A stretch of 58,460 bases of DNA from Pseudomonadota bacterium (lineage in GTDB: Bacteria > Pseudomonadota > Gammaproteobacteria > Burkholderiales > Burkholderiaceae_E), in the NCBI GenBank assembly GCA_029779755.1, contig JAKOZZ010000184.1:1-58460 (forward strand), in the 5' to 3' direction. A program made the position numbers and the translations under genes. The notes under the pieces are model-generated. The model saw only the letters and a program-made list of their open reading frames with translations. It did no database searches and was not told the DNA's origin. Positions 2,245 through 52,640 of this stretch are shown here, piece by piece. Positions within the stretch are counted from its first letter, which is position 1; every line of letters begins with the position of its first letter.

Positions 2245-3357
2245 TCAGGTGCGCCGCTGTGCGAAGAAGTGGTTGAACGCCATCTTCAGGTCGACCGAGG
2301 TGTCGTTCTGCCAGCGCGCGGCGCGCAGCGCAAACGTGCGCTGCGAATCGAGCACGCGCCGGAACAGCGGGTTCTCGGCCGACTTCGCCGCGCACACCTC
2401 GTCCCAGGCGCGCAGCTGGGCGCGCAGCACCGCATCGGGGGTCTTGTAGAACTTCACCCCCTGCTTCTGCTGCATCTCGACGTAGTCCTTCGAGTACCGG
2501 TCGATCGCCTTCCACGACATGTCGGCCGAGGCGGCCTCCACGGCGTGCTCGATGATCGCCTTCACCTCGCGCGGCAGCGCATCGTGCCGCCTGCGGTTGA
2601 ACAGGATCTCCAGCTGCTCGGAGCTCTGATGGAAGCTCTGCAGCATGCAGACCTTGGCCACGTCGGGAAAGCCCAGGATGCGATCCGACGAGGCGTTGCT
2701 GAACTCGGCCGCGTCGAGCAGTCCGCGGTCCAGCGCCGGCACGATCTCGGCCCCGGGCAGCGCATTGACGACCGCCCCCATCCGCGAGAAGACATCGATC
2801 GACAGGCCTGCGGTCCGGTACTTGAGTCCCTTCAGGTCGTCCGGCCGGGCCACCGGGCGCTTGAACCAGCCCAGCGGCTGGGTGGGCATCGGCCCGTACA
2901 GGAACGACACCACGTCCATGTTCAGGCCGCGATAGATCTCCTCGAGCAGCTCCCGCCCGCCGCCGTACTTGTGCCACGCCAGCAGCATGTTGGCGTCCAT
3001 GCCGAAGGCCGGTCCCGACCCCCAGAGCGCCATCGCGGAGTTCTTGCCGTACCAGTACGACAGCACTCCATGCCCGCCGTCGAGCAGCCCGCGCGACACA
3101 GCGTCGAGCAGATCGAAGGCCTTGACCACGGCCCCGGAGGGCAGCACGTCGATGCGGACCTTGCCCCCCGCCATCTCGTTGACGCGGTGGGCGAAGTCGT
3201 TCGCATACTCGTGGAAGATGTCCTTCGCCGGCCAGGTGCTCTGGAAGCGCAGGTTGATGCGCTGGGCGGTCGCGATCATCGGGAACCCCAACGCCGCAGC
3301 GCCGGCCGACGCACCGGTCGCCACGAAGCGTCTGCGGTTGGATCCCGTCAGGGTCAT
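2245..3357 (-). CDS. TRAP transporter substrate-binding protein (DctP family)
   Basis: Periplasmic solute receptor of 370 residues for a tripartite ATP-independent transporter. ATG 3357 (MTLTGSNRRRF) is chosen over the GTG at 3384 because it places a twin-arginine-like signal (NRRRFVATGAS followed by an Ala-rich core and a TAQR cleavage region) at the N-terminus. The mature part shows DctP features: LRFQSTWPAKDIFHEYANDF near the start, the GGKVRIDVLPSGA segment, and a PDDLKGLKYRT hinge-type motif with the conserved arginine that contacts a ligand carboxylate in this family. It is followed by the DctM-like permease 106 bp downstream on the same strand. Ligand is unknown; alpha-keto or aromatic acids are possible by family. 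Confidence 0.88.
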   Translation of the reverse strand: MTLTGSNRRRFVATGASAGAAALGFPMIATAQRINLRFQSTWPAKDIFHEYANDFAHRVNEMAGGKVRIDVLPSGAVVKAFDLLDAVSRGLLDGGHGVLSYWYGKNSAMALWGSGPAFGMDANMLLAWHKYGGGRELLEEIYRGLNMDVVSFLYGPMPTQPLGWFKRPVARPDDLKGLKYRTAGLSIDVFSRMGAVVNALPGAEIVPALDRGLLDAAEFSNASSDRILGFPDVAKVCMLQSFHQSSEQLEILFNRRRHDALPREVKAIIEHAVEAASADMSWKAIDRYSKDYVEMQQKQGVKFYKTPDAVLRAQLRAWDEVCAAKSAENPLFRRVLDSQRTFALRAARWQNDTSVDLKMAFNHFFAQRRT

Positions 3358-37774: not shown

Positions 37775-39295
37775 ATGGCCACCCCCGCCGACAAGCTCGC
37801 CCAGTCACTCGACGCGCTGAAAGCGCTTCAGGACACGAAGGCCGTGGCAATCCGGGCGTCCGATCTCACGCGCGTCCACAGGGAGCGCCTGCTCAGGAAC
37901 GGCTTCATCCGCGAAGTGATGAAGGGTTGGTACATCCCCGCGCGGCCCGACGGCGCCGCTGGCGAGAGCACCGACTGGTACGCGTCGTTCTGGCCCTTCT
38001 GCGCGGCCTACCTGACCGAACGCTTCGCAGACGACTGGTGCCTGGGGGCCGAGCACTCCATCGCCCTGCACACCGGCAACTGGAACGTGCCCCGCCAGCT
38101 CCTCGTGCGCGCCACACGAGGCGGCAACAAGCCGACCGGACTGCTGCACGATACGTCGATCTTCGATCTGCGCCTCGAAGTCCCTGCGGCAGCAGATCTC
38201 GAGGTCATCGACGGCCTGCGGATCATGCGCCTTCCGGCGGCGCTCATCACCTGCGCACCGGGCCACTTTGCCGCGCACCCGGTCGAGGCGCGCGCGGCGC
38301 TGGCGATGATTGCCGACGCTTCCGATGTCCTGAGCCGGCTGCTCGACGGCGGGCACAGCAGCATCGCCGGACGACTGGCAGGCGCCTTTCGCAACATCGG
38401 ACGCCCCCAGATCGCCGAGGCGATCGTCTCGACCATGAAGTCGGCGGGCTACACGGTCCATGAAGCCGATCCGTTCGCCGACCGGCCGCCGGTCGCCCTG
38501 GGGCTGCGCGAAACCTCGCCCGCCGTCAACCGGCTGCGCATGTCGTGGGCGACGATGCGGCACGCCGTGCTGCAGGCGGGGTTCCCGCCGCCGCCCGGCC
38601 TGCCGCGCGATGTCGACGCCTACCTGCATCGGGTCGAGGACGGATATGTCACCGATGCCTATCACTCGCTGTCCATCGAAGGCTACCGGGTGAGCGCTGA
38701 ACTGATCGAGCGCGTGCGTTCGGGCCACTGGAACCCCGACAGCGAAGCCGACCGCTCGCATCGGGACGCGCTTGCGGCACGTGGCTACTGGCTGGCCTTT
38801 CAGAAGGTCAGAGACACGGTGCGCCGCATCGCCCAGGGTGCGAACGCGGGCGAGGCCACGCAGACGGATCACGGCGCGTGGTACCGCGAACTGTTCGGCC
38901 CCGGCGTTGCGGCGGGTCTCCTGAAGCCCGGCGACCTTGCAGGCTACCGGAACGGCCCGGTCTACATCCGGCAGTCCATGCACGTCCCGCCGCGCGCCGA
39001 AGCGGTGCGCGCGCTGATGCCCGCCCTCTTCGACCTGCTGCGCGACGAACCCGACGTGTCGGTGCGCGTGGTGCTCGGACACTTCTTCTTCGTGAACATC
39101 CATCCGTACTTCGACGGCAACGGTCGGATGGGGCGCTTTCTGATGAACGCGATGCTGGCGTCGGGCGGCTACCCCTGGACCGTCATACCGGTGACGGAAC
39201 GAACGCGCTACATGAGCGCGCTCGAAGCGGCGAGTGTGCAGGGGGACATCCGGCCGTTTGCGGGGCTGGTGGCGGAACGGGTTGCACGCGGCTGA
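37775..39295 (+). CDS. Fic-domain AMPylase-like protein with AbiEi-like N-terminus
   Basis: Protein of 506 residues. Residues 20-60 (IRASDLTRVHRERLLRNGFIREVMKGWYIP) resemble the winged-helix start of AbiEi-type antitoxin/transcriptional proteins, and about 65-230 continue that type of domain. The C-terminal Fic domain carries the full catalytic motif HPYFDGNGRMGR (443-454), so nucleotidyl transfer is expected. An inhibitory-helix motif SLSIEG (298-303, the (S/T)xxxE(G/N) type) precedes the core, indicating an intramolecular auto-inhibited (class II) Fic enzyme. There is no separate antitoxin gene. The AbiEi-like domain may bind its own AT-rich promoter. Target protein unknown; defence or stress regulation is an inference. 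Confidence 0.85.
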   Translation: MATPADKLAQSLDALKALQDTKAVAIRASDLTRVHRERLLRNGFIREVMKGWYIPARPDGAAGESTDWYASFWPFCAAYLTERFADDWCLGAEHSIALHTGNWNVPRQLLVRATRGGNKPTGLLHDTSIFDLRLEVPAAADLEVIDGLRIMRLPAALITCAPGHFAAHPVEARAALAMIADASDVLSRLLDGGHSSIAGRLAGAFRNIGRPQIAEAIVSTMKSAGYTVHEADPFADRPPVALGLRETSPAVNRLRMSWATMRHAVLQAGFPPPPGLPRDVDAYLHRVEDGYVTDAYHSLSIEGYRVSAELIERVRSGHWNPDSEADRSHRDALAARGYWLAFQKVRDTVRRIAQGANAGEATQTDHGAWYRELFGPGVAAGLLKPGDLAGYRNGPVYIRQSMHVPPRAEAVRALMPALFDLLRDEPDVSVRVVLGHFFFVNIHPYFDGNGRMGRFLMNAMLASGGYPWTVIPVTERTRYMSALEAASVQGDIRPFAGLVAERVARG

Positions 39296-43938: not shown

Positions 43939-43968
43939 TTGACAGCGATTTGACGCAACGCACAAAAT
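43939..43968 (+). promoter_or_regulatory. Promoter of the RND efflux operon
   Basis: Consensus TTGACA (43939-43944), 18-bp spacer, CAAAAT (43963-43968). Expected start near 43975, just before the leader hairpin and the riboswitch candidate, giving a leader of about 275 bases before the first gene. Confidence 0.55.
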
Positions 43969-43976
43969 CCGCAGGC

Positions 43977-43994
43977 GGGTTCCGCGAGGAACCC
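43977..43994 (+). other. 5'-leader hairpin with GNRA-type loop
   Basis: GGGTTCC-GCGA-GGAACCC, a perfect 7-bp stem capped by GCGA, 8 bases before the riboswitch candidate and right at the expected transcript 5' end. It probably stabilises the leader RNA or insulates the aptamer fold. Confidence 0.5.
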
Positions 43995-44002
43995 ACCGCA
44001 CC

Positions 44003-44138
44003 TCGAGGGGAGTAGCGACGGCGTCGCAGCACCGGATGCCGATGGTGTGCCCGACAATTCGGAAAGTGCGCTTTCCCGGGCCACCACGCAGTCTGCCGCC
44101 GTTTCGCTGACGGAGCGCAGTCGCGCGCAAGACCTTGA
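44003..44138 (+). ncRNA. yybP-ykoY (manganese) riboswitch candidate
   Basis: The region carries both hallmark boxes of the yybP-ykoY aptamer: GGGGAGTAGC at 44007-44016 and GCAAGACC at 44127-44134. The flanks form the expected P1 helix: TCGAGG (44003-44008) pairs with CCTTGA (44133-44138), six pairs including one G-U. Between them lie GCGAC-GGC-GTCGC right after the 5' box and GGAAAG-TGCG-CTTTCC at about 44061-44076, consistent with the internal stems. This RNA class senses Mn2+ by established knowledge. It sits in the long leader of the tripartite efflux operon, 110 bases before the first start codon. I could not run a covariance model, so the call rests on these boxes and pairings. Confidence 0.75.
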
Positions 44139-44185
44139 TGACGTCGTCCTGCCTGGGTGGCCTCACTCCCGGCCGGGCCGGCATC

Positions 44186-44233
44186 GGGTCTCGCCGTGCA
44201 GGAGATCGATGCCGTTCGTATCGAACCTGCACG
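44186..44233 (+). promoter_or_regulatory. Likely riboswitch expression platform
   Basis: GGTCT (44187-44191) is complementary to AGACC (44130-44134) of the aptamer's 3' P1 strand, so it can compete with P1. It is followed by a strong hairpin: CGTGCAGG (44195-44202) pairs with CCTGCACG (44226-44233), with inner TCGAT/ATCGA. The hairpin ends 15 bases before the first start codon and could mask the ribosome-binding region; no U-run for termination. Confidence 0.45.
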
Positions 44234-44248
44234 ACGTGGACCGCACCG

Positions 44249-45505
44249 ATGATTCCTACCTTCCCGCCGTTCCTGCACACCGTCCGCGCGGCGCTGTGCG
44301 CCGGTCTGCTGTGGGCCGGCACGCCGGTGCACGCCGCGGACTACACGATCGGCCGCCTGCTGAGCATCGCCGAGCAGTCCAGCCCCGTGCTGGCCGCCGC
44401 CCGGGCCGAGGCGCGCGCCGTGCGCGCGGGCATCCTCACCGCCCAGACGCTGCCCAACCCCACCTTGCAGGTCGGCCCGTCGTGGCTGCGCGCGCGCACC
44501 ACGGGCGCAAGCGGCGGTTCCGGGCTGTCGATGGCGGTCACCCAGCGCATCGAGCGCCCCGACCTGCGCCAGGCGCGCATCCAGACCGCGGCGCTGGCGG
44601 CGCAGTCCGGCGACCTGAACGTGGTGATCACCGAGAACAGCCTCTTCGCCGAGATCAAGACGCGCTTCTACAACGTGCTGCGCCAGCAGGAGGCGGTGCA
44701 GGCCGCGAGCGAAGATCTCGCGCTCACCGAGCAGATCCGCGAGCGCACCGCCGTGCGCGTGCGCACCGGCGAAGGCGCACGCTTCGACCTGATCCGCGCC
44801 GAGGCCGAGGCGGCCAACGCCGCCAAGGCGCTGGAGCGCGCCCGCGCCAGGCTCGAGCAGGCCCGCGCACTGCTGCGCGAGGTGGTGGGCGAGAGCCTGC
44901 CGCCCGACTTCACGCTGAGCCAGGACTTCTACCGCAGCCTGCCGACGGCCGACTACGGCGAGCTGCTCACCTCGCTGTCGGTCGACAACCCCGTGCTGCA
45001 GCGCGCGGTCACCGAGGTCGAGCGCGCCCGTCGCCAGGTCGACGTCGAGCAGCGGCAGGTGATGCCCGGCGTCGAGGTCTACGTGGGACGGGACCGCGAC
45101 CCCGAACTGTCCACCACCCGGATGGGCCTGTCGCTGACGATTCCGCTGACCGATCGCCGCGCCGGCCCGATCGAGGAGGCCCGCCGGCTGGTCGAGCGCA
45201 ACGAGGCGCTGCTCGAGCAGCAGCGCCTGGCGCTGCGCCAGCAGTTCGAGGCGGTGTGGCGCGAATACGGCTCGGCGCGTGCGGCGGTGCTGGCGCTCGA
45301 GAACGGCATCATCGACAAGGCCCGCTCCGCGCTGACGATCGCCGAGTCCGCCTACCGCTTCGGCGAGCGCGGCATCCTCGAATTCCTCGACGCCCAGCGG
45401 CAGTTCCGCCTGGTGCGCAACGAACTGATCGAAGCCCGCTTCGAGACCTACGCAGCGAAGGCAGAGCTCGAGCGCCTGTCCGCACGCGAAATCCGTGGAG
45501 AATGA
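44249..45505 (+). CDS. Outer-membrane efflux channel (CzcC/TolC family)
   Basis: TolC-type trimeric outer-membrane factor of 418 residues. ATG 44249 (MIPTFPPFLHTVRAALCAG) supplies a signal peptide cleaved near VHAAD. The track's ATG at 44135 would place coding sequence over the riboswitch's 3' end and adds a non-homologous leader, so it is rejected. Two TolC repeats are visible with long helical stretches (LPNPTLQVGPSW; ERTAVRVRTGEGARFDLIRAEAEAANAAKALERARARLEQAR). First gene of a CzcCBA-type operon. Confidence 0.88.
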   Translation: MIPTFPPFLHTVRAALCAGLLWAGTPVHAADYTIGRLLSIAEQSSPVLAAARAEARAVRAGILTAQTLPNPTLQVGPSWLRARTTGASGGSGLSMAVTQRIERPDLRQARIQTAALAAQSGDLNVVITENSLFAEIKTRFYNVLRQQEAVQAASEDLALTEQIRERTAVRVRTGEGARFDLIRAEAEAANAAKALERARARLEQARALLREVVGESLPPDFTLSQDFYRSLPTADYGELLTSLSVDNPVLQRAVTEVERARRQVDVEQRQVMPGVEVYVGRDRDPELSTTRMGLSLTIPLTDRRAGPIEEARRLVERNEALLEQQRLALRQQFEAVWREYGSARAAVLALENGIIDKARSALTIAESAYRFGERGILEFLDAQRQFRLVRNELIEARFETYAAKAELERLSAREIRGE

Positions 45506-45506
45506 G

Positions 45507-46835
45507 ATGACCCTGGCCCTGCCCCGAATGCACCGCCGCGTCGGCTCCGCGCGTATCACCGCGCGCGCCGCCGACGCCGCACGCGCACCGTCCGCCACTC
45601 GCGCACGGTCGGCCGCACGTCCGCTGCACGCGGCAGCAACGCGTTTTGCGCTGCCGCTGCTGGCCGCCGCCACGCTGCTGGGCCTCGCCGGCTGCCAGGA
45701 CCGGGCGAGCGCGCCCGCGGCACCGGCCGCTTCGACCGGTGAAGCCACCCAGAAGGCCGGCGCCTCGGCCAGGAAGCAGGCGCCCGCCAACCCCGACGAG
45801 GTGCAGGCCACTGCGGCCCTGGCCCAATACGTCAAGACGGGCGTCCCGGTCCGCGCCGTGGTGCGGCGCACGCTCCAGATCCCCGGCCGCCTCGAGATGA
45901 ACGAGAACCAGACGGCACGGGTCGGTGCACCGTTCACCGGACGCATCATGTCGCTCAACGCCGTGGTCGGGCAGGTGGTCAGGCGCGGTGACGTGCTGGC
46001 CGAGGTAAGCAGCCCGGAGCTGTCCACCGCACAGCTCGGGTTCCTCAAGGCACATTCGGCCAACGAGCTCGCCGAGCGCGCCGTCGAGCGCGCGAAGCTG
46101 CTGCTGGCCGCCGACGTGATCGGCACCGCCGAACTGCAGCGCCGCGAGAACGAGCTGACCGTGGCCCGGGCCGAGAAGCGTGCCTCCACCGATCAGTTGC
46201 GTGTGCTCGGACTGCCGATGGCGGTCATCCAGCGGCTCGAGAGCACCGGCCAGCTCGTGGCCAGCACGCCGGTGACCGCGACCAAGACCGGCACGATCAT
46301 CGAGCGCAAGGCAGCCATCGGGCAGGTCGTCGACCCGACGGACGAACTGTTCACGATCTCGAACCTCGACTCGATCTGGGCGGTGGCCGACGTGCCCGAG
46401 CAGGAAGCCCGCGAGCTGCGCCGCGGTCAGCGTGTGCACCTGGACATCCCGGCGCTGCGCAACGGGAAGCGGCTCGGCACCATCGAGTTCGTCTCCGACC
46501 TGGTCAACCCGGAAACCCGGACGATCCAGGTGCGCATGGCGCTGGCCAATCCGCAGCGCGAATACAAGCCTGCGATGCTGGCGTCGATGGTTCTCGAAGG
46601 TCCGGAGGAGTCGCACCTGGTGGTGCCGCCGTCAGCGATCGTGCGGGAGGAGAACCGCGATCACGTGTTCGTCGCGCTGGGCAACGACCGCTACGTGCTG
46701 CGCCCGATCACCGTGGGCATGGAGCACAACGGCCAGCGCGTGGTGCTCAGCGGCCTGCAGGAGCATGACCAGATCGTCACGAACGGGGCCTTCCATCTGA
46801 ACAACGAGCGCAAGCTGCGCGCCTCCGGGGGCTGA
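45507..46835 (+). CDS. RND efflux periplasmic adaptor (CzcB/CusB type)
   Basis: Membrane-fusion protein of 442 residues starting 1 base after the czcC-like stop. ATG 45507 is used; the track's GTG 45495 overlaps the previous gene. After an Arg/Ala-rich stretch of about 45 residues comes a lipoprotein signal ending in LLGLAGC (Cys63), an unusually late lipobox; a start at ATG 45528 would shorten it. Adaptor motifs: RVGAPFTGRIMSLNAVVGQVVRRGDVLAEVSSPEL (lipoyl half-motif), helical hairpin, then IWAVADVPEQEARELRRGQRVHLDIPA and a C-terminal barrel. Links pump and outer-membrane channel. Confidence 0.9.
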   Translation: MTLALPRMHRRVGSARITARAADAARAPSATRARSAARPLHAAATRFALPLLAAATLLGLAGCQDRASAPAAPAASTGEATQKAGASARKQAPANPDEVQATAALAQYVKTGVPVRAVVRRTLQIPGRLEMNENQTARVGAPFTGRIMSLNAVVGQVVRRGDVLAEVSSPELSTAQLGFLKAHSANELAERAVERAKLLLAADVIGTAELQRRENELTVARAEKRASTDQLRVLGLPMAVIQRLESTGQLVASTPVTATKTGTIIERKAAIGQVVDPTDELFTISNLDSIWAVADVPEQEARELRRGQRVHLDIPALRNGKRLGTIEFVSDLVNPETRTIQVRMALANPQREYKPAMLASMVLEGPEESHLVVPPSAIVREENRDHVFVALGNDRYVLRPITVGMEHNGQRVVLSGLQEHDQIVTNGAFHLNNERKLRASGG

Positions 46836-46841
46836 GCGGTC

Positions 46842-49800
46842 ATGATCGAATCCCTCGTCCGGACGGCGCTGCATCAGCGCCTGATCGTGCTCGTCGTCGC
46901 GCTCATCCTGCTCGCGTTCGGCGCCGACGCCACCCGCAAGCTGTCGGTCGACGCGTTCCCCGACGTCACCACCGTGCAGGTGCAGATCGCCACCGAGGCG
47001 CCGGGCCGCTCGCCGGAGGAAGTCGAGCGCTTCGTCACCGTGCCGCTCGAGATCGCGATGACCGGCCTGCCCGGCCTGACCGAGATGCGCTCGCTGAACA
47101 AGCCCGCGCTGTCGCTGATCACGCTGGTCTTCACCGACCAGACCAACGTCTACTTCGCGCGCCAGCTGGTGATGGAGCGGTTGCAGGAGGTCACGTCGCG
47201 CATGCCGCCGGGCGTGACCCCGGTGCTGGGCCCGGTGTCGAGCGCGCTGGGCGAGGTCTACCAGTACACGCTGGAGCGCGCCGACGACGGCGACCGCGCA
47301 CTCACGCGCGCCGAGCTCACCGAGCGGCGCGTGGTGCAGGACTGGGTGGTGCGTCCGCTGCTGCGTTCGATCCCGGGTGTTGCCGAGATCAACTCCACGG
47401 GCGGCTACGTGCGTCAGTACCAGGTGCTGGCCGACCCGGCCAAGCTGCGCTACTACAAGGTGTCACTGAACGACGTGCATCGCGCACTGGCCGAGAACAA
47501 CGCCAACTCGGGCGGCGGCATCCTGCCGCAGGGCGCCGAGCAGTTCCTGGTGCGCGGCGTGGGCCTGATCCGCAGCCTCGACGACATCGGCACCATCGTG
47601 CTGAAGGAGGTCAGCGGCACGCCGGTCTTCCTGCGCGACGTCGCATCGATCACCCTCGGCGACGAGGTGCGCTACGGCGCGATGATCAAGAACGGTGTCA
47701 CCGAATCGGTCGGGGGCATCGTCATGATGATCCGGGCGGGCAACGCCAAGGAAGTCGTCAGCCGCGTGAAGAAGCGCGTCGACGAGATCAACGCGAAGGG
47801 CATGCTGCCCGACGGCCTGAAGATCGTGCCGTACTACGACCGCTCCGAGCTGGTCGACGCGGCGCTCTGGACGGTGACCAAGGTGCTGCTCGAAGGCGCG
47901 GTCTTCGTGATGATCGTGCTGTTCCTGTTCCTGGGCGACCTGCGCTCGAGCCTGGTGGTGATCGCCACGCTGGTGCTCACGCCGGTGATCACGTTCATCG
48001 TGATGAACCGCATCGGGCTGTCGGCCAACCTGATGTCGCTGGGCGGCCTGGCGATCGCCATCGGACTGATGATCGACGGCTCGGTGGTGGTCGTGGAGAA
48101 CGCGTTTGCGCAGCTCGGCCACCGCAAGGGCGTCGACCGCCTGCGCGTGGTGTTCGAGGCCGTGCGCGACGTGGCCACGCCGGTGGTGTTCGGCATCGGC
48201 ATCATCATCCTGGTGTTCCTGCCGCTGATGACGCTCACCGGCATGGAAGGCAAGATGTTCGCGCCGCTGGCGTACACGATCGCGATCGCGCTCACGATCT
48301 CGCTGGTCATCTCGCTGACCCTGACGCCGGCCCTGTCGATGTACGTGCTCAAGGGCGGCGACGAGCACGACACCTGGCTGATCGCACGCCTGAAGCGGCC
48401 CTACCTGAAGCTGCTGCACCTGGCATTGCGCAACCCGACGCGCACCGTCGCGATCGCCGGCGCCGCCTTCGTCGGTGCGCTTGCGCTGGTGCCGATGCTG
48501 GGCACGTCCTTCATCCCCGAGATGAAGGAAGGGTCGGTGTCGCCCAACATGGACCGCGTCGCCAACATCTCGCTGAACGAATCCATCGCGATGGAGATGG
48601 AAGCGATGAAGCTGGTGCGTGACGTCCCGGGTGTGAAGGTCGTTGTCTCGCGCCTCGGCCGCGGCGACAGCCCGGCCGACCCGGCCGGGCCGAACGAGGC
48701 CGACGTGATCGCCACGCTGAAGCCACGCGACGAATGGCCCGAGGGCTGGACACAGGACACGATCGCCGACGAGATGCGCCAGAAGCTTTCGCGGTTTCCG
48801 GGTGTGCAGGTGGTGATGGCCCAGCCGATCTCCGACCGCGTCGACGAGATGGTCACCGGCGTGCGCTCCGACGTGGCCGTGAAGATCTTCGGCGACGACA
48901 TGGAGATGCTGCGCGACAAGGCCGGCGAGGTGGCGGCCGTCGCCGCGCAGATCCAGGGTCTGCGCGACCAGCGCATCGAGCGGGTGGGCGGCCAGCAGTA
49001 CCTGACGCTCACGATCGACCGGCAGGCGATCGCTCGTGCCGGGCTCAACGCGGCCGACGTGCACGACGTGATCGAGACGGCGATCGGCGGCAAGGTCGCC
49101 ACCGACATCTTCGAGGGCGAGCGCCGCTTCCAGGCGGTGGTGCGCCTGCCCGAATCGATGCGCGACTCGGTCGACGAGATCCGCAAGATCACGGTGACCG
49201 CGCCGGGCGGCGCACTGGTGCCGCTGGACAACCTGGCGCGCATCGAAGTCAACGAAGGTCCGGCGCAGATCAGCCGCGAGACCGGCAAGCGCCGCATCGT
49301 GGTGGCGATCAACGTGCAGGACCGCGACCTCGGCGGCTTCGTCGCCGAGCTGCGCAGCAAGGTCGAATCGCAGGTGAAGCTGCCCGAGGGCTACTACTAC
49401 GAGTGGGGCGGCACCTTCCAGAACATGGAGCGCGCGCTGAGCCACCTGACGATCATCGTGCCGGCCACGGTCGCGGCGATCTTCTTCCTGCTGTTCCTGC
49501 TGTTCTCGTCGGTGCGGTTCGCGGCGCTGATCATCACCGTGCTGCCCTTCGCGTCGATCGGCGGCATCGTCGGCCTGTTCGTCAGCCGAGAGTACCTGTC
49601 GGTGCCCGCGTCGGTGGGCTTCATCGCGCTGTGGGGCATCGCCGTGCTCAACGGCGTGGTGCTGGTGTCCTACATCCGCAAGCTGCGGCGCGAAGGGCAC
49701 GACACGCTCGGCGCGATCGTCGAGGGCGCCACGCAGCGCTTCCGCCCGGTGCTGATGACGGCGACGGTGGCGATGCTGGGCCTGATCCCGTTCCTGTTCG

Positions 49801-50024
49801 CGACCGGGCCGGGCTCCGAGGTGCAGCGTCCGCTGGCGATCGTCGTGATCGGCGGGCTGATCACCTGCACGCTGCTGACGCTGATCGTGGTGCCGGTGCT
49901 GTACCGCTGGTTCGAGAACCCGGCGGCCGAGGACGCGCTCGCCGCGGTCGAGAAGCAGGTGCAGGCACGCCGTGCGGCGCGGGCCGCGGCGCTCGAGGCG
50001 GCGGGCGACGCGCGCCCGCATTGA
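46842..50024 (+). CDS. Heavy-metal RND efflux pump (CzcA family)
   Basis: Proton-driven inner-membrane pump of 1060 residues with the usual 12 helices and two large periplasmic loops. It starts with MIESLVRTALHQRLIVLVVALILLAFG and contains KLSVDAFPDVTTVQVQIATEAPGRSPEEVERFVTVPLE, the heavy-metal RND signature. The metal-specificity segment of helix 4 reads AIGLMIDGSVVVVEN: it keeps the family DG and EN but is neither the DFG..DGA form of CzcA nor the VDAA form of CusA, so the metal cannot be assigned by motif. With the upstream riboswitch, manganese is a reasonable hypothesis. C-terminal residues are Ala/Arg-rich without an obvious metal motif. Confidence 0.93.
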   Translation: MIESLVRTALHQRLIVLVVALILLAFGADATRKLSVDAFPDVTTVQVQIATEAPGRSPEEVERFVTVPLEIAMTGLPGLTEMRSLNKPALSLITLVFTDQTNVYFARQLVMERLQEVTSRMPPGVTPVLGPVSSALGEVYQYTLERADDGDRALTRAELTERRVVQDWVVRPLLRSIPGVAEINSTGGYVRQYQVLADPAKLRYYKVSLNDVHRALAENNANSGGGILPQGAEQFLVRGVGLIRSLDDIGTIVLKEVSGTPVFLRDVASITLGDEVRYGAMIKNGVTESVGGIVMMIRAGNAKEVVSRVKKRVDEINAKGMLPDGLKIVPYYDRSELVDAALWTVTKVLLEGAVFVMIVLFLFLGDLRSSLVVIATLVLTPVITFIVMNRIGLSANLMSLGGLAIAIGLMIDGSVVVVENAFAQLGHRKGVDRLRVVFEAVRDVATPVVFGIGIIILVFLPLMTLTGMEGKMFAPLAYTIAIALTISLVISLTLTPALSMYVLKGGDEHDTWLIARLKRPYLKLLHLALRNPTRTVAIAGAAFVGALALVPMLGTSFIPEMKEGSVSPNMDRVANISLNESIAMEMEAMKLVRDVPGVKVVVSRLGRGDSPADPAGPNEADVIATLKPRDEWPEGWTQDTIADEMRQKLSRFPGVQVVMAQPISDRVDEMVTGVRSDVAVKIFGDDMEMLRDKAGEVAAVAAQIQGLRDQRIERVGGQQYLTLTIDRQAIARAGLNAADVHDVIETAIGGKVATDIFEGERRFQAVVRLPESMRDSVDEIRKITVTAPGGALVPLDNLARIEVNEGPAQISRETGKRRIVVAINVQDRDLGGFVAELRSKVESQVKLPEGYYYEWGGTFQNMERALSHLTIIVPATVAAIFFLLFLLFSSVRFAALIITVLPFASIGGIVGLFVSREYLSVPASVGFIALWGIAVLNGVVLVSYIRKLRREGHDTLGAIVEGATQRFRPVLMTATVAMLGLIPFLFATGPGSEVQRPLAIVVIGGLITCTLLTLIVVPVLYRWFENPAAEDALAAVEKQVQARRAARAAALEAAGDARPH

Positions 50025-51998: not shown

Positions 51999-52640
51999 CT
52001 ACCAGCGCAGCACGCGCGGCCCCAGCAGCGCCCCCAGCGCCGCGACCGCCAGCACACCCCCCACGTACCAGACGGCCAGGAACGGCGCGGCCATCTCCGG
52101 GCAGTGCAGGCTGTAGGCGGTCGCACCGATCGCCCCGGACAGCAGGCCGGCGACGGCCCCTGCGGCGCGCAGCCGCGTGGGCGCCATGCGCGCCATCGCC
52201 CGCATCGCCAGCACGAAACCGGGTAACGACAGCACCACGATGGCCACCGGGCACACCGCCCAGGTGGTGCCCAGCACGAGCGCGGCCCGCTCCTGCGGGG
52301 CGGCCGACCCGAGCGCCGCGAACGCGAGCGCCCAGAGGGCCAGCACCGGCAGCGCCGGCGCCCAGGCGAGCAGACCTGCCCGTGCCCCCGGACGGCCCAG
52401 CCGGCGGCCGAGCGGCAGGGCCAGCAGGGCGAGCGCCGCGACGAACCCCGCCTTGCCCCAGAACATCGGGGCGTGCGCCGCCTGCGCCAGATCCGGGCGC
52501 AGGCCCAGGGCCAGCAGCACCAGCACGGTCGCGCAGACGGCGCCCAGCGCGGCGGCCATCCCCCAGGTCCGGCCGGCCGCCCGCGGATCGGCCGCCACCG
52601 GCCCCCGGGCCAGCAGGTCGATCAGCTCATCGGTCTTCAT
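51999..52640 (-). CDS. NrsF-type anti-sigma factor (DUF1109)
   Basis: Membrane protein of 213 residues with six predicted helices and no large soluble domain. It starts [14 protein letters not shown], the conserved N-terminal segment of NrsF/DUF1109, and ends with [19 protein letters not shown], a conserved block with the Cys that responds to stress or metals in characterised members. Overlaps the ECF sigma gene by 14 bp, so it should hold that sigma factor at the membrane. The 119-bp region downstream (51880-51998) contains GTCTGCG four times and no gene. Confidence 0.85.

Follow-up and report, generated by a model that had tools for sequence, protein, structure and literature searches.

What would a manganese-sensing RNA be doing in front of a heavy-metal efflux pump? 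The question is raised by a leader in a 58,460-nt stretch of Burkholderiales DNA (here called the window), which the original prediction, made from the letters alone, had read as a candidate yybP-ykoY Mn2+ riboswitch controlling a CzcCBA-type RND efflux operon. Along the + strand the order is promoter, 5' hairpin, yybP-ykoY aptamer (about 44001-44140) and czcC-czcB-czcA operon (44249-50024), and the leader is made up of the following parts.

43939..43968, + strand: sigma-70-like promoter, TTGACA-18 nt-CAAAAT, from a consensus scan
43974..43997, + strand: 5' hairpin GGCGGGUUCC-GCGA-GGAACCCACC at the transcript start, from RNAfold
44001..44140, + strand: yybP-ykoY aptamer with a four-way junction, matched by covariance model R1 (trained without any RND leader)

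The promoter matched the consensus at 10 of 12 positions, against a shuffle mean of 0.0 in the same scan, and both it and the 5' hairpin were found as predicted. The two boxes said to lie 110 bases apart are at 44007-44016 (GGGGAGTAGC) and 44127-44134 (GCAAGACC), with a spacing of exactly 110 nt. This pair was the sole instance in the window, even with one mismatch allowed per box, and 60 dinucleotide-shuffled windows gave 0 exact pairs and 0.12 relaxed pairs each. A search of 74 family genomes gave 22 sites with the exact two-box pattern and 0 with the reversed one.

Unguided RNAfold of positions 44001-44142 produced a four-way junction consisting of P1.1, L1 (GGAGUA/AAGA), P1.2 (GC(G)), P2, the P3 leg and P4. 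The elements of the aptamer are as follows.

44003..44008, + strand: 5' strand of P1.1, UCGAGG, pairing with CCUUGA at 44133-44138
44007..44016, + strand: 5' box of L1, GGGGAGUAGC, an exact match (residue numbering from PMC6754395)
44019..44041, + strand: P2 hairpin, CGGCGUC...GAUGCCG, from the fold
44049..44081, + strand: P3, which covaries across the pump leaders
44049-44053 / 44077-44081, + strand: P3.1, GCCCG:CGGGC, extended by GGUG:CACC
44054..44060, + strand: L3 bulge ACAAUUC (ACAATTC in DNA), 7 nt, within the P3 helix
44061-44076, + strand: P3.2, GGAAAG-UGCG-CUUUCC
44127..44134, + strand: 3' box of L1, adjoining the 3' strand of P1.1

The predicted 6-bp P1 helix corresponds to P1.1 (UCGAGG:CCUUGA). 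The metal-binding L3 bulge was absent from the earlier description and was found at 44054-44060; the MFE fold yielded exactly this 7-nt bulge on the 5' side of the P3 leg, between P3.1 and P3.2. In the solved aptamers, L3 is UCA41AUUC in L. lactis and ACA48UACU in X. oryzae, and N7 of the numbered adenosine contacts Mn2+ (PMC6754395). In that numbering, position 44056 is the invariable adenosine, the counterpart of A41 and A48, and 44011 in the L1 5' box is the counterpart of the A-minor A10. Since the ACAAUUC bulge occupies the L3 place of the solved aptamers, the window keeps both the Mn2+-contacting and the A-minor adenosine. The isolated aptamer fold has a z-score of only -1.35 and is not unusually stable, so the case for an aptamer rests on these specific features and not on energy. 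A separate descriptor gave a p of about 0.01 for the P3/L3 fit of the window. With P1.1, the L1 boxes, the four-way junction and a 7-nt L3 carrying the Mn2+-contacting A, the anatomy of the class is present, and the leader element almost certainly belongs to the yybP-ykoY aptamer class.

The Rfam yybP-ykoY model, proposed with the original prediction as a check, did not come out in its favor: RF00080 gave no match to the window element at the gathering cut-off or at E 10. Together with the modest z-score, this miss is what could be said for a chance resemblance or a decayed relic with no functional aptamer. In the window's genome RF00080 finds only the UPF0016 leader (L001, 82.5 bits) and misses the TerC-associated L005, and it also misses the elements of L186, L190 and L110; the elements missed in this GC-rich family are TerC-associated and pump-associated ones with the short L3. 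Because the model fails on TerC-associated copies in the same and other genomes, we did not accept the Rfam miss as decisive; it appears to be a limit of that model. A script analysis showed that a short NCANNNC L3 bulge is common to TerC and pump leaders and that L3 differs in UPF0016 leaders.

Aligning the entire leaders with MAFFT put P3 out of register between subtypes, and we therefore built a stem-anchored core alignment by script. Covariance model R1 was trained on 19 stem-anchored TerC leaders and zero pump leaders. In the window, the aptamer was its sole match (29.8 bits, E 1.5e-5). The R1 alignment skips the P2/P3 part of the window by a local gap; for P3/L3 the evidence is therefore that of the separate descriptor. 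R1 recovered every pump leader, the weakest being that of a riboswitch-terC-pump locus (L190, E 0.011), and across 1.0 Mb of related pump loci its matches were significant at two loci, both of them real, with a single further match at E 3.9. The R1 match of the terC-pump locus L186 is not independent, because this is the same element as training row L004.

Among 12 pump leaders, standard pairs were kept throughout at the five inner positions of P3.1 and the four outer ones of P3.2, with up to five pair types, and L3 was NCANNNC with the CA invariant. Pairing of P1.1 beyond 3 bp was not kept in every one of the 12. The L3 of pump leader L189 is CCATTCC, with C at the first position where its near relative L188 has T; position 39 therefore varies (U/A/C) and the CA is fixed. 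The lack of the box pair in all 60 shuffled windows, the P3/L3 fit, the presence of the promoter and the recurrence of the arrangement, covarying helices included, at 11 other loci make chance resemblance or decay very improbable.

The genes that follow the aptamer encode a tripartite pump of a kind that reaches across both membranes.

44249..45505, + strand: czcC-like outer-membrane efflux protein with a signal-peptide-like N terminus (OEP PF02321, 1e-39)
45495..46835, + strand: czcB-like periplasmic adaptor (HlyD_D23, 4e-55; RND_mfp above cut-off)
46842..50024, + strand: czcA-like HME-RND permease with AIGLMIDGSVVVVEN in TM4 (TIGR00914; ACR_tran)

The permease scored 1105.8 bits against TIGR00914 (cut-off 701), and its nearest PDB structure is ZneA 4k0e. 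A CusA/CzcA-family permease, an adaptor and an outer-membrane factor together define an HME-RND efflux system, and to this extent the prediction of a CzcCBA-type RND operon stood. The name CzcCBA is loose, since TM4 lacks the aspartate of ZneA's DFG; at the aligned place the window permease has AIG instead. The motif DFG-x3-DGA in TM4, which we take to define the HME1/HME2 (CzcA, CnrA) subgroup, was not found in the window permease. In CusA the DFG aspartate is likewise replaced, but the window branch still keeps DG(S/A), and the motif AIGLMIDGSVVVVEN is common, with small changes, to the whole permease branch. The order OEP-adaptor-permease and the TIGR00914 permease are shared with the CzcCBA, CnrCBA and Zne HME-RND systems of Cupriavidus, the known ones of which are under protein regulators and export Zn/Co/Cd or Co/Ni.

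On the opposite strand, a short way downstream of the pump, is an NrsF-like negative regulator of sigma F (51999-52640 (-); Pfam PF06532, 1.2e-63). In Caulobacter, the NrsF/sigma F system responds to metals. Elsewhere in the window, a 506-aa ORF (37775-39295 (+)) has a Fic/DOC domain near its C terminus.

A further check named with the original prediction, conservation of the leader before orthologous pumps, was borne out. Within one Burkholderiales family, nine genomes from three genera have the element immediately upstream of czcC: the window, four others of the window's genus, a single genome from a second genus and three belonging to a third. In two more family genomes (G012 and G009) it precedes terC, followed by czcCBA, and a locus from a named collection (L110) is the third with the order riboswitch-terC-czcCBA. 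The riboswitch-pump arrangement occurs in at least eleven related loci besides the window. At the window's strict-pattern site and at five of those in other genomes, the gene right after the element encodes the OEP, and the adaptor and permease genes come next. In G012 the reading frames of terC and czcC overlap, stop and start sharing base 3337, and with this overlap and adjacency terC seems to form a single operon with the pump genes. The fragmentation of the window's genome (457 contigs, 4.36% contamination) could speak for a binning artefact of a metagenome-assembled genome, but the riboswitch-pump junction is internal to a 58-kb contig and turns up again in near-complete genomes with few contigs (G057, G056 and G031). 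These facts refute such an artefact at the junction itself, and we give the explanation practically no credence.

A permease search returned orthologues of at least 60% identity in about 28 family genomes, including two cut at contig ends. In 12 of these genomes the element was not seen within the upstream stretch read, and contig ends kept five more out of the assessment. All five genomes of the window's genus found with the pump have the element, though their permeases are spread over different branches. We rejected the notion that every close CzcA orthologue has the element, which only two of 80 related pump loci carry. The element is missing from about half of the family orthologues that could be assessed and from nearly all other close permeases, so the pump is not always under its control. 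Genome G043 has two czcA orthologues in tandem (L184:332-6651).

Strict-pattern searches of the order and class gave no pump association outside the family among the loci listed, a lower bound; they took in up to 30 loci each, and four new class-level loci were left out. The remaining elements that were read in the order stand before TerC, UPF0016, MntP-like or cation-antiporter-like genes. The window's genome contains two further Mn2+-type riboswitches, before a UPF0016 gene (L001:527-707 (-)) and before terC (L005/L033:893-1001), and the UPF0016, terC and pump elements together form a three-transporter set. At a riboswitch-free locus of Proteobacteria FK1.bin35, a czcA orthologue has a terC-like gene just after it (L044:7500-8474), which makes one more neighborhood of terC and pump.

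We placed 104 permeases in a tree, and those with the riboswitch took at least three supported positions. The window groups with G065/G056/G057, G028 stands by itself among relatives that lack the riboswitch, and a further clade contains the terC-pump operons. These separate positions indicate that the element was recruited repeatedly or moved between pumps. Repeated recruitment, or exchange of leader and pump, is the simplest reading of the tree, and either would point to a functional link. A single origin of the association was unsupported by the permease tree, with which transfer or leader swapping is compatible.

Judged from its sequence, the window aptamer probably has Mn2+ as its ligand. 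The chief rival to this reading is that a yybP-ykoY variant senses another divalent ion (e.g., Co2+, Ni2+, Fe2+ or Cd2+), turning on a pump for the ion it senses. Characterized HME-RND pumps export Zn/Co/Cd, Co/Ni or Cu/Ag. These substrate ranges are partly from PMC7689651. Some yybP variants have probably changed specificity (review PMC7266159), and U39 of L. lactis is A in the window's ACAAUUC, as it is in X. oryzae. However, the metal-contacting base (A41/A48) and the L1 boxes are retained, and at three loci the same type of element stands before TerC within the same operon as the pump; TerC is linked to Mn (PMC12096827). Sensing of another ion is, in our judgment, quite unlikely.

A Mn2+ riboswitch could also control an operon whose pump exports another metal or a broad range, serving mismetallation correction or general envelope stress. 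Many bacteria have close permease orthologues without a riboswitch, which means that the pump family is also of use outside riboswitch control. The repeated pairing with terC and the several separate tree positions are nevertheless simplest if the substrate is Mn2+, and a pump for another metal or of broad range seems unlikely. The riboswitch-pump arrangement in the related loci suggests that these pumps expel manganese, and on balance the substrate of the window pump would include Mn2+.

One strand downstream of the aptamer could take part in switching.

44182..44194, + strand: candidate competitor strand CAUCGGGUCUCGC, a candidate expression platform that could pair over 12 bp with the L1 3'/P1.1 3' strand

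Its pairing had a p of 0.018 in the window and was mostly not significant in relatives, and forced-fold comparison gave start-site exposure that was not consistent with it. These two results led us to claim no platform; neither competitor pairing nor forced folds revealed a conserved one in the window and relatives. No intrinsic terminator was evident in the leader.

The analysis shows the anatomy of the aptamer, its conservation and covariation, the gene order and the repeated association with pumps. Ligand, switching direction, platform and pump substrate are what we infer in the following reading: most likely, the leader is a Mn2+-ON riboswitch for an HME-RND pump that helps expel Mn2+. At high cytosolic Mn2+, the ion would be bound between L1 and L3, docking the two legs of the aptamer and stabilizing P1.1, by analogy with characterized members in which Mn2+ stabilizes P1.1 and turns expression ON (PMC6754395, PMC9190785). 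Stabilized P1.1 would permit czcCBA expression, through translation or through escape from Rho, which is involved in the E. coli mntP riboswitch (PMC11647493). The pump would then remove Mn2+ from the cell envelope, probably taking Mn2+ brought to the periplasm by TerC or UPF0016 proteins. We infer this two-step route, from TerC/UPF0016 to the periplasm and from RND to the outside, from gene order. Whether the HME-RND branch with AIG-x3-DG(S/A) in TM4 exports Mn2+ across the outer membrane as the step after TerC, having come under Mn2+ riboswitches at least three times, is evenly balanced.

The window element shares with the Rfam RF00080 Manganese class (L. lactis yoaB, X. oryzae) the L1 boxes, P1.1, the 7-nt L3 with its invariable A, P3.1/P3.2 and the four-way junction, but it precedes an RND tripartite operon and gets no score from the RF00080 model. 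The TerC-type leaders of the family and order (e.g., L005) have the same NCANNNC L3 and P3 architecture and were found by the same descriptor and model; their first gene is terC, whereas the window's pump operon has no terC. The NiCo (czcD) riboswitch, cited in PMC7689651, is likewise a metal riboswitch controlling heavy-metal efflux genes and differs in fold and ligand; Rfam gave no match to it in the window at gathering or at E 10. The cited literature names MntP, CDF proteins, P-type ATPases and TerC/UPF0016-type or antiporter proteins as Mn2+ exporters. The open full-text literature searched contained no paper in which an RND pump is connected with a Mn2+ riboswitch.

In GC-rich bacteria, a class of yybP-ykoY riboswitches escapes the current Rfam model. 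The link between riboswitch and pump provides a testable substrate for a large HME-RND branch, for which the literature searched gave no substrate description, and it points to a relay from TerC to RND by which Mn2+ would be cleared from the envelope. If true, these bacteria would have a tripartite manganese efflux route under RNA control.
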